DNA from: Amnibacterium kyonggiense
GTDB taxonomy: Bacteria; Actinomycetota; Actinomycetes; Actinomycetales; Microbacteriaceae
Reading direction: 5' to 3'
DNA: 64,000 nucleotides
Assembly (NCBI RefSeq): GCF_004364555.1
Contig: NZ_SOAM01000002.1
Location: 868,001 to 932,000, forward strand
The notes beneath the pieces were generated by a model. That model worked only from the letters and a program-made list of their open reading frames with translations. It had not been told where the DNA came from and did not search any database. Positions 32,511 to 36,974 of the stretch are shown here, in pieces. Made by a program: the position numbers and the translations under genes. Positions within the stretch are counted from its first letter, which is position 1; each line of letters begins with the position of its first letter.

Positions 32511-34280
<1,770 letters not shown>

Positions 34281-34301
34281 CTACTCGTCGGTTCCGGCCA
34301 G

Positions 34302-34351
34302 CGCGAGGACTCCGCGACGAGGAGGGCCTGAGGAGTTAGGCCTCGTCGCGG
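34302..34351 (-). promoter_or_regulatory. leuA attenuator hairpins
   Basis: In the minus-strand transcript, CCGCGACGAGG (end of the leader ORF) pairs perfectly over 11 bp with CCTCGTCGCGG just beyond its stop (34312-34351). The 3' arm can instead pair with the following segment (34302-34316, CGCGGAG/CTCGCG type). The two structures exclude each other. A ribosome stalled on the Leu codons would cover the 5' arm of the first hairpin. No T-run follows, so control may act on leuA translation or Rho. Confidence 0.65.
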
Positions 34352-34380
34352 CAGCGAAGGAGGAGGAGCGCCGTCTGCAC
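34336..34380 (-). CDS. leuL: leucine leader peptide of leuA
   Basis: A 14-codon ORF, GTG start, encoding MQTALLLLRCRDEA and ending in TAA, with four consecutive Leu codons (CTC CTC CTC CTT). It lies 71 bases upstream of leuA on the same strand. A TACCCT hexamer sits 7 bases before the GTG, so the peptide probably starts at the very 5' end of the transcript. Its last codons form the 5' arm of the strong hairpin. These are the hallmarks of ribosome-mediated leucine attenuation; leaders of this kind have been predicted before leuA in other actinobacteria. Not experimentally shown here. Confidence 0.8.
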   Translation of the reverse strand: MQTALLLLRCRDEA

Positions 34381-34387
34381 GGTGGCC

Positions 34388-34393
34388 AGGGTA
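34388..34393 (-). promoter_or_regulatory. -10 hexamer of the leuL-leuA transcript
   Basis: TACCCT on the minus strand, 7 bases before the leader GTG at 34380. Confidence 0.55.
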
Positions 34394-34430
34394 GCACCGC
34401 GGCCGCGAGGAGGGCTCGGAGCCGGACCGC

Positions 34431-36974
34431 CTACCGGCGCTCCTCCCCCGCCGGCGCGCCCTGGTCCTGCGGGGCGGCCGCCGCGAGCGTCCGGATCCGG
34501 GCCTCGTCCTCGTCCTCCTCGGGCCGGAGAGCCCCGACCATGCGGGCGAGCACGGGGAGGGTGATGTCCGGCAGGTAGGCGCGCGCGACGGCGATGCTGA
34601 TCGCCGGCAGCGCGACGGCGTCCGCGTAGGCGAGCACCTGGGGGCGGTGCTCCGGGCGGAACTTCTGCTTGTACGCCGCGAGCGAGCGGAAGCCGTAGGC
34701 GGGCTCGAGCAGGCGGCCGAGGCTTCCCAGCAGCCGTTCGAGCCGGTCGTCGGCGTCGGACGACGCGCCCGCGAGCGGAGCGACGGAGAGGCTGACGAAC
34801 CGCAGGGCGCGCTGCGCGGCGTGGCCGATGACGGCGGCGATGACGAACTCCATGACGCCGTTCGGCGAGCCCGGCCTGCGGCGCATGAAGTCGAGCGTCA
34901 GGCCGACGAGCTCGCCGTCCTGCCACGTGGGGAGCCAGGAGGTGACGCCCTCGATGCGGTCCCCGGGGCCGACGGCGAGCATCAGCCGCACCTCGCGGTC
35001 GACGAGCTCGCCGACGCCGCCGAGGGTGAAGCCGAGCTCCGGCAGCCGCTTGTCCGCGACCCACTCCTCGCTGATCGACTCGATCTGGGTGCGCCAGCCG
35101 AGCGGCAGCTCGGCCCAGCCCGTCCAGACCGAGCGGATGCCGAGGCGGTCCGCCCGGTTGATGGAGGAGCGCACGTCCTGCCAGTGCTTGCCCTTCATGG
35201 AGAACGAGGTCGGGTCGATGACCGTGTCCTCGCCGACCTCGACCGACGCCCAGGCCGCGCCGGGACCGCCGAGCCCCTCGGCGAACTCCGGCCGCACGGA
35301 GTAGAAGGCCGGGGTGAGTCCGATGTCGTCGCAGTGGACGGCGAAGGCGCGCGCCGCCTCCATCGCGCCGTCGTCGGGCCCGACCGGCTCCCCGAGGGTG
35401 AGCGCGACGCCCGAGCCCTCGCGGTAGGCGACGGCGTGCCGACCGTCCGCGCTGAACCAGTACCGGTTGCCCGGCCAGGTCGCCATCCAGGAGATCGATC
35501 CGCGCCCGCCGGCCTGCAGCAGGGTGCGCACGCGCGCCAGGTCGCGCTCGGAGGTCGCGCCCAGCACGGAGCGGGCCACGACGATCCCGGCGACGAGCAG
35601 GGCGAACCAGGCGAGCGGCCCGACCCATCCCTCGAGCAGCTGCGCGACCGGTCCGACCGGCACGAAGTCGACCCGGCGGAACCGGAGGAAGCCGACGGGC
35701 ACGTAGCGCTGCGGCAGCTCGAGGAGCAGGTCGAGCACCGACGGGACGGGTTTGAACTGGGCGCGCACGAGCGTGCCGAGGCCGACGTAGAGCACCGCGG
35801 AGAGGACCGTCGCGCCGCCGAAGACGGCGCCGCCCACGAGCACCGCCTGTCGCGAGGGGCGCGCGGTCAGATGCCGGCGGCCCACCAGGACACCGACGAC
35901 GAGCGCGAGCGGCACGAGGACGGCGAGGATCGACTGCAGCGTGAGCTGAGCGCGGATGTCGGCGATCTGGTCCGGGTCGCCGAGGGCGGGGAACAGCCCG
36001 TAGTAGACCGCGGCGAACAGCGCGAGCAGGCCGTTCACGAGGATCGAGAGCCAGGCGCCGACGCGTCGGCCCCGCTGGACGGCGAACGCGGCGAGCAGCG
36101 CGACGAGCAGCGGGAGCACCGTGAGCACGAGCGCGCCGGGACCGTTCAGCCGGGCGAGCGCCAGCTCCCGTCCGCAGCCGGGCTCCGCACCGATCCGCGC
36201 GCAGCGCTCGGCCAGCGCCCCCGCGCCGGGGAGCGTGTCGCGGAAGAGCCGCCCGAACGGCCGCAGCAGGCCGTACCCGGTGGGCTGGACGATCGCGACG
36301 ACCGGGCCGATCGCGGAGACGGCGAGCACGACCGCGAGCAGGCTGCGCGCCTCGTGGTGCGAGCTGCGGAGGAAGACGAGGCGAGGCCGCCGACGGGCGA
36401 GCACCCAGCCGAGCGCGAGGCCGCCGAGGGCGGCCGCGAGACGGTTCACGTCGCTCGGCTGGCCCGAGTAGAGGAGCAGGACGATCAGCGCGGCGAAGCC
36501 GACGAGCCGGATCCGCCGGCGCCAGAGCGGCCCGGCGAACGCGCTCGTCGCCATGACGACGCCCACGATCGGCGTGATCGGGTCGAGCACGATCGAGGTG
36601 GCGGGCGGGGTTGTCCAGTACTCGCGCGTGAGGAGACCGGCCGCCTGCGCCGCCGTCCCCAGCAGGCCGCCCAGCACCGCGGTGACGATCCAGGCGAGCA
36701 GGACGCGGCCGGTGCCGATCAGCCGCTCGCAGGCGCCGACGCCGAGCACGAGCGCGAGCACCGCGACCGGCAGACCAGGGCCGCGCGCGAAGAGCACGCT
36801 CGAGACCAGCCGCCAGACCTGGCCGCGTTCGTACAGCTCCCGGATGTCGAGCCCGACCGCGGCCGCGAGGCCGGAGTCCTGCCCCGGGACGAACGAGCGG
36901 GTCGCGATCGCGAGCAGCAGGAGGAGGACGGCGAGGCCGACGGAGGCGGGTCGCTGACGGATCCAGGCGATCAC
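34431..36974 (-). CDS. rhomboid-like/MprF-type fusion: aminoacyl-phospholipid synthase domain protein
   Basis: An 847-residue membrane protein. The N-terminal region (about residues 1-230) looks rhomboid-like: VWRLVSSVLFARGP, then GACERLIGTGRVLLAWIVTA, but the expected GxSG catalytic motif reads DPITPIVGVVMATSAF with no equivalent serine. More helices follow to about residue 520. The C-terminal 300 residues are the DUF2156 (MprF synthase) domain: WPGNRYWFSADGRHAVAYRE, DPTSFSMKGKHWQDVRSSIN, RRPGSPNGVMEFVIAAVIGH and GFRSLAAYKQKFRPEH. Such domains transfer an amino acid from tRNA to a membrane lipid. GTG at 36974 overlaps the esterase stop as GTGA, so the pair is co-translated. Confidence 0.82.
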   Translation of the reverse strand: MIAWIRQRPASVGLAVLLLLLAIATRSFVPGQDSGLAAAVGLDIRELYERGQVWRLVSSVLFARGPGLPVAVLALVLGVGACERLIGTGRVLLAWIVTAVLGGLLGTAAQAAGLLTREYWTTPPATSIVLDPITPIVGVVMATSAFAGPLWRRRIRLVGFAALIVLLLYSGQPSDVNRLAAALGGLALGWVLARRRPRLVFLRSSHHEARSLLAVVLAVSAIGPVVAIVQPTGYGLLRPFGRLFRDTLPGAGALAERCARIGAEPGCGRELALARLNGPGALVLTVLPLLVALLAAFAVQRGRRVGAWLSILVNGLLALFAAVYYGLFPALGDPDQIADIRAQLTLQSILAVLVPLALVVGVLVGRRHLTARPSRQAVLVGGAVFGGATVLSAVLYVGLGTLVRAQFKPVPSVLDLLLELPQRYVPVGFLRFRRVDFVPVGPVAQLLEGWVGPLAWFALLVAGIVVARSVLGATSERDLARVRTLLQAGGRGSISWMATWPGNRYWFSADGRHAVAYREGSGVALTLGEPVGPDDGAMEAARAFAVHCDDIGLTPAFYSVRPEFAEGLGGPGAAWASVEVGEDTVIDPTSFSMKGKHWQDVRSSINRADRLGIRSVWTGWAELPLGWRTQIESISEEWVADKRLPELGFTLGGVGELVDREVRLMLAVGPGDRIEGVTSWLPTWQDGELVGLTLDFMRRRPGSPNGVMEFVIAAVIGHAAQRALRFVSLSVAPLAGASSDADDRLERLLGSLGRLLEPAYGFRSLAAYKQKFRPEHRPQVLAYADAVALPAISIAVARAYLPDITLPVLARMVGALRPEEDEDEARIRTLAAAAPQDQGAPAGEERR

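Follow-up and report, generated by a model that had tools for sequence, protein, structure and literature searches.

A predicted leaderless LEU element before leuA of Amnibacterium kyonggiense, with related copies before leuC and leuB in Actinobacteria

The classical enterobacterial leu attenuator encodes a Leu-rich leader peptide, which senses Leu-tRNA charging, and a terminator with a U tract. The element described here has a similarly Leu-rich leader, but it lacks a terminator and its output is probably translation.

In Actinobacteria, Seliverstov et al. (2005) predicted a LEU element before leuA in most members of the group, with a stem between a run of Leu codons and the Shine-Dalgarno (SD) sequence and a pseudoknot; the element was also found within one transposase gene (PMC1262725). 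Seliverstov and colleagues favoured a protein ligand (ML1624 helicase family) because mutations of the Leu codons in S. coelicolor did not fit attenuation (PMC1262725). In S. lividans TK24, the leader LeuL1 (MRFGLLLLSCRGEGL) lies upstream of leuA and is leaderless by transcriptome data (PMC8079986). Leaders with four consecutive Leu codons, as in the locus studied here, also precede leuA in Corynebacterium glutamicum (PMC4046766, PMC3890552) and C. diphtheriae (MNRANLLLLRRGGSQA; PMC5784534). In C. diphtheriae no transcript start could be assigned (PMC5784534), and the likeness of these leaders to the locus studied here is one of sequence.

The window analysed here is a 64-kb stretch of A. kyonggiense DNA, and all features described in it are on the minus strand. 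The product of leuA (32511..34265, ATG at 34265) matches TIGR00970 with 836 bits (cut-off 697) and is a 2-isopropylmalate synthase. Upstream of it is the leader ORF MQTALLLLRCRDEA (34336..34380), whose 14 codons and stop read GTG CAG ACG GCG CTC CTC CTC CTT CGC TGC CGC GAC GAG GCC TAA. The GTG (34380-34378) is the predicted transcript 5' end, the Leu run CTC CTC CTC CTT occupies 34357..34368, and the last base of the TAA (34336) is 71 bases from the leuA ATG. The hexamer TACCCT (34388..34393), separated from the GTG by 7 nt, is the predicted -10 element of a leaderless promoter; a consensus scan identified no sigma-70 -35/-10 pair. This arrangement (TAnnnT, 6-8 nt, ATG or GTG and an ORF of 8-30 codons) occurs once in the window, at the leuA leader. 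The ORF, its four Leu codons, the hexamer and the distance to leuA are all as described in an earlier note on this DNA. leuA itself has a weak SD-like sequence, AGAGAGAA (34275..34282), and the best anti-SD duplex near its start has an energy of just -3.1 kcal/mol. With a Leu-run ORF directly before leuA in an actinobacterium, the locus has the gene arrangement of the LEU element, and the note's statement that such Leu attenuators had been predicted before actinobacterial leuA agrees with the published record (PMC1262725). The element is not found through Rfam 15, which gave two weak matches in 34000-34700, far under the gathering cut-off and neither covering the leader, and no match at the cut-off in the eight scanned of the 132 leuA loci compared below.

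The end of the leader ORF forms a perfect hairpin of 11 bp in which CCGCGACGAGG (34351-34341) is complementary to CCTCGTCGCGG (34322-34312) and the leader stop codon lies in the loop. The 5' arm CCGCGACGAG (34342..34351) encodes R-D-E and pairs with the 3' arm CTCGTCGCGG (34312..34321), the eleventh pair being contributed by 34341 and 34322. For comparison, 67 diverse leuA cores were picked and 59 were aligned, with the window standing for L001 (left out: L016, L057, L082, L084, L099, L108, L126 and L132). The ten central pairs are near-invariant, each forming in at least 57 of the 59 sequences, and two of them covary; one of two outer pairs that were added forms in just 27. Seven of these 12 pairs are invariant. 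The 46-nt hairpin folds with -25 kcal/mol (z -4.15, for a stretch picked by the analyst). The entire 121-nt leader is barely stabler than its shuffles (z -0.83), and whole-leader fold energy is uninformative. The hairpin is not followed by a T run, and a scan of 34200-34500 that admits loops of 3-8 nt found no Rho-independent terminator; the missing T run accords with the earlier note, and classical attenuation by a terminator was rejected on these grounds. LeuL1 of S. lividans is alike in its position before leuA, its leaderless type and its lack of a typical Rho-independent terminator, and differs in that its start was mapped by transcriptome (PMC8079986) whereas that of the window is predicted.

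Covariation suggests a second structure, in which the hairpin loop pairs with a segment further downstream. In the window, GGCC in the loop (34325..34328) would pair with a downstream GGCC (34296..34299), these 4 bp being the window's share of a pseudoknot between alignment columns 39-44 and 70-75. Across the 59 sequences, 76% of cells are paired, compared with 60% in shuffles, and 54 cells are changed on both sides, compared with 21 +/- 4. Kinship alone can push sequences past shuffles, so the control in which one strand is slid matters here: the optimum is at slide 0, and the slid registers reach at most 50% paired and at most 31 both-side-changed cells. A swap between sister pairs gave no significant result for the loop-downstream pairing (21 better, 16 worse) or for the hairpin arms (10 better, 3 worse). 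Covariation backs a loop-to-downstream pseudoknot, a feature that was also described for the LEU element (PMC1262725). A guess at the published helix (columns 11-15 with 71-75) has 63% of cells paired and is best at its own register; it has 10 both-side-changed cells against 4.1 in shuffles, yet sliding it by -3 or +3 gives 10 as well. A further helix nested in the hairpin loop (GGCCT/AGGCC) is prominent in the window's own fold. As a conserved competitor it was rejected, with 69% of cells paired and a native energy (-3.67) no better than the swapped one (-3.68). The note did not specify which second hairpin can replace the first; of these two pairings, it is the pseudoknot that comparison of the sequences backs, and the nested helix is the less conserved.

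The leader was compared at 132 leuA loci, comprising 30 from relatives, 80 from named contigs and 22 more from the family Microbacteriaceae; some genomes are counted twice (128 distinct cores), and the named contigs include some from other Micrococcales or Kineococcus. At 132/132 loci there is a leader containing two or more consecutive Leu codons, and at 128/132 TAnnnT is positioned 6-8 nt before its start, as located by a finder that favours Leu runs and TAnnnT. A separate frame test sought only TAnnnT and an ATG or GTG upstream of the conserved hairpin motif. The start codon was in frame with a conserved CGC codon at all 126 loci having both (6 of 132 not found), at distances of 18, 27, 30, 33 and 39 nt, which differ by multiples of three; because 88 of the 126 loci share the distance of 30, common descent limits how many of these events are independent. 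The leader stop codon is 6-18 nt 5' of the 3' arm at all 130 loci with an identified arm (none was identified at 2). Leader codons 2-4 lack a clear synonymous excess, with 21 synonymous and 46 other steps against 113 to 290 expected, which counts against a coding signature. Taken together, the comparison indicates that the leuA leader is not a chance ORF and that the window leader is an actinobacterial LEU element, another case of the known leuA type. It shares with the 2005 element the gene, the Leu-run leader and the pseudoknot as described there (PMC1262725), whereas the base stem between Leu run and SD is seen in the mean of the family and is weak in the window; the leaderless start signature, the stop in the loop, the leuC copies in Microbacteriaceae and the Val/Leu/Ile copies before leuB are additions of the present analysis. 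The comparison of leuA leaders in relatives that the note had proposed thus finds the Leu run kept, and its prediction of a leaderless-type leader holds through the TAnnnT spacing and the start frame. Overall, the observation in the note is correct and its interpretation is supported, by comparison of related loci, as largely right.

The choice of Leu codons suggests that the run has a second role as an anti-SD strand. CTT makes up 45% of the 468 Leu codons in leaders but 2.8% of the 5161 in leuA. The run ends in the rare codon CTT (codon 8) in 66/66 distinct 14-amino-acid leaders (of 114 distinct leaders overall), more invariance than one would expect pairing with a variable SD to need. When the Leu run was tested against the 24 nt before leuA in 120 distinct pairs, the mean duplex energy was -10.9 kcal/mol, compared with -9.6 for swapped regions (0/2000 permutations as low), -7.3 with shuffled SD regions and -6.6 with windows inside leuA. 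Plain codon repeats against the leuA SD at 125 loci gave -7.9 (CUG), -8.7 (CUC) and -9.0 kcal/mol (CUU). The swap test is inflated because the loci are related, and swaps with the nearest sister gave no significant difference (27 better, 16 worse, 21 ties; p 0.13), which counts against the model, as do the weak duplex (-7.5 kcal/mol) and the weak SD (-3.1 kcal/mol) of the window itself. Secondary structures without pseudoknots were also folded with a ribosome footprint of 31 nt. At 125 leuA loci, the unpaired value of the SD is 0.45 when the ribosome sits on the Leu codons, 0.29 when it is at the stop codon and 0.24 in its absence; a shift greater than 0.05 runs in the predicted direction at 91 loci and in the opposite direction at 18. 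Two results go against the model: the SD is nearly as open with a ribosome at the start codon (0.43) as with one on the Leu codons, and folding of the window runs opposite, with values of 0.51 on the Leu codons and 0.68 at the stop. The comparative data nevertheless lean towards translational control of leuA, since pairing of the Leu run is stronger with its own leuA SD than when that region is shuffled or swapped. The choice of CTC/CTT and the complementarity to the SD point to a translational output for both leuA and leuC, the latter being discussed below.

The proposed model, to which a probability of roughly 0.6 is assigned, is that the LEU element controls leuA by translational attenuation, with the Leu run doubling as the anti-SD strand. 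Transcription would start at the leader GTG and the ribosome would begin at the 5' end. With ample charged Leu-tRNA, the ribosome would pass the Leu codons and end at the stop codon in the hairpin loop; the freed Leu run could then pair with the leuA SD, held in place by the hairpin and pseudoknot, and little leuA would be translated. When leucine is short, a ribosome stalled on the Leu codons would cover both the base of the hairpin and the anti-SD strand, allowing leuA to be translated. The signature of a translated frame, the stop in the loop, the hairpin, the pseudoknot and the codon choice are supported by comparison of related loci, while the transcript start, stall, switch and leucine response are inferred. 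Codon sensing is favoured by three features: a start in frame, a stop codon inside the loop and sensor codons that change from operon to operon.

Three other explanations were considered. The earlier note left open whether control acts on leuA translation or through Rho. Transcription could be controlled without an intrinsic terminator if translation of the leader, or its arrest, decided whether RNA polymerase pauses or is terminated by Rho ahead of leuA. A hairpin without a T run would suit this mechanism, and Rho was suggested for actinobacterial cys leaders (PMC1262725), but there are ~70 nt between the leader stop and leuA, and the CTT/CTC choice, the complementarity of Leu run and SD and the pseudoknot would be left unexplained. 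Control through Rho or pausing is considered unlikely; it is the translation side of the note's alternative that the pairing of Leu run and SD favours. A similarly low probability is given to the proposal that the element is a protein-binding site, with the ML1624 helicase family of Seliverstov and colleagues as the candidate, and that the leader codons are not leucine sensors. The strong conservation of the hairpin's primary sequence, with seven of the 12 pairs invariant, and the authors' reading of the S. coelicolor mutations are in its favour; these mutations, as retold in that paper, behaved unlike classical attenuation and count against the attenuation model (PMC1262725). The signatures of start frame and stop in the loop point instead to codon reading, as do sensor codons that become Val/Leu/Ile before leuB.

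The least probable explanation, given little credence, is that constitutive masking of the SD sets a low level of leuA translation and that an anti-SD run of pyrimidines reads as Leu codons only incidentally. The CTC/CTT choice suits such pairing, and constant masking would agree with the last Leu being CTT in all 66 distinct 14-amino-acid leaders and with leader codons 2-4 having no clear synonymous-step excess. It would not account for a start codon in frame at 126/126 loci and near the predicted transcript start at 128/132, nor for the leuB type, in which mixed Val/Leu/Ile codons do not form an anti-SD run.

The element before leuA was already known. The value of the present case is that a mechanism left open in 2005 gains a specific, falsifiable model, in which sensor codons are at the same time the anti-SD lock, and that it shows how a leader with neither an SD nor a terminator could regulate. 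The leuC copies, and the leuB copies with their other codons, serve as natural replicates. A covariance model has two strong matches in the source genome (75.6 and 60.6 bits; the next is 22). The second LEU element (L170:656-735, equal to C1:1383655-1383734) precedes leuC-leuD, encodes the leader MLRGALLLPCRDEV and has TAACGT 7 nt upstream. Its loop-downstream pairing is CCGGC:GCCGG where the leuA copy has GGCC:GGCC. The model matches 291/299 genomes of Microbacteriaceae, approximately 180 of them (by hand count) two or more times. Among 28 second copies fetched from this family, 27 are before leuC and one is before leuA, proportions that are not frequencies because the copies were picked from genomes with more than one match; all 28 have a Leu-run leader with TAnnnT 6-7 nt upstream, as found by a finder rewarding both. 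One family member has a third copy (L186; G265:C1:1157764-1157842), with the leader MQFHGLLLLRRRGEG; the gene behind it is leuA-like, and its product shares 56% identity with the window LeuA.

The leuC copies were not used to define the pseudoknot and have 93% of its cells paired, with no compensatory change among these copies alone; a test of the longest loop-downstream helix is at chance level (4.6 native, 4.6 swapped, 4.7 shuffled). Their Leu run pairs with the SD at -10.1 kcal/mol, compared with -8.9 swapped and -5.8 shuffled (27 loci). Footprint folding runs in the predicted direction at 14 of the 27 loci and opposite at 4, and the copy from the source genome does not switch (0.27 and 0.27), a result that goes against the model. 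Outside Microbacteriaceae, the leuC type was absent from 29 other leuC loci (the best 30 matches from 60 genomes, the source genome's own being the only one with the element).

Across the class, 366/394 genomes match the model at an E-value of 0.01 or better, and all eight matches examined outside Microbacteriaceae, from the top of the list, lie before leuA. Twenty further copies, one within Microbacteriaceae and 19 outside, were taken from genomes that the model matched more than once; nine lie before leuA (by tblastn), nine before leuB and two were assigned to neither, numbers that again reflect this choice of genomes and are not frequencies. In one of these two (L200), leuB is 1.5 kb away behind another ORF; in the other (L204), no leu gene was recognised within 2.2 kb. 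The nine leuB-type copies (L187, L188, L190, L192, L195, L198, L199, L201 and L202), in which leuB was named from the analyst's reading of translations, belong to other Actinobacteria and have leaders with mixed Val/Leu/Ile codons, such as MRQVLVLITCRGGA and MARQLVILSSRGEFR. Five of these leaders were located by script (L188, L198, L199 and L201, with L190 as a longer ORF) and the rest by eye. Their starts lie 6-10 nt past TAnnnT (by eye), and so the leaders would be leaderless or nearly so. The gene after leuB is ilvE in eight of the nine; the stretch of L195 ends too soon. Among 30 leuB loci of the class, the element is upstream on the leuB strand in six, three of them in genomes within the nine. 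The longest loop-downstream helix averages 7.3 bp in leuB copies, compared with 5.7 bp swapped and 5.3 bp shuffled (11 of 12 copies). For the source genome, a branched-chain leader upstream of leuB was rejected, as none matched the model or was apparent by eye.

Because the sensor codons are Leu before leuA and Val/Leu/Ile before leuB, they follow the operon, which favours codon sensing. The leuB-type codons are not an anti-SD run and the element is roughly 200-660 nt from leuB, so the output may differ from that of the leuA type. There is perhaps an even chance that Actinobacteria have a branched-chain amino acid regulon built on the LEU element as a modular RNA switch, leaderless and with exchangeable codons: Leu before leuA and, as a copy, before leuCD in Microbacteriaceae, but Val/Leu/Ile before leuB-ilvE in other groups. 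In this reading the sensor codons would themselves be the anti-SD strand in the leuA and leuC types, and the S. coelicolor mutations of the Leu codons would have altered sensor and lock together, which would also explain their paradoxical results. The leuC and leuB copies may be the new part. The words leuB, ilvE and leaderless are absent from the 2005 paper in its available text, where matches to "leuC" belong to leucine, leucyl and similar words (PMC1262725), and no report of either copy was found in titles and abstract openings of the open-access literature, a body that leaves most subscription papers outside.

At six or more of the leuB-type loci (L187, L188, L190, L192, L201 and L202), a small SD-bearing ORF, 20-50 codons long, is located between the leader and leuB. 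No Pfam match near the cut-off was found for these six, nor any NCBIfam match for the four scanned. The small ORFs share a tail, such as QTALDLRDNGG..RPDDN or ALQEAMDRRDNGG.
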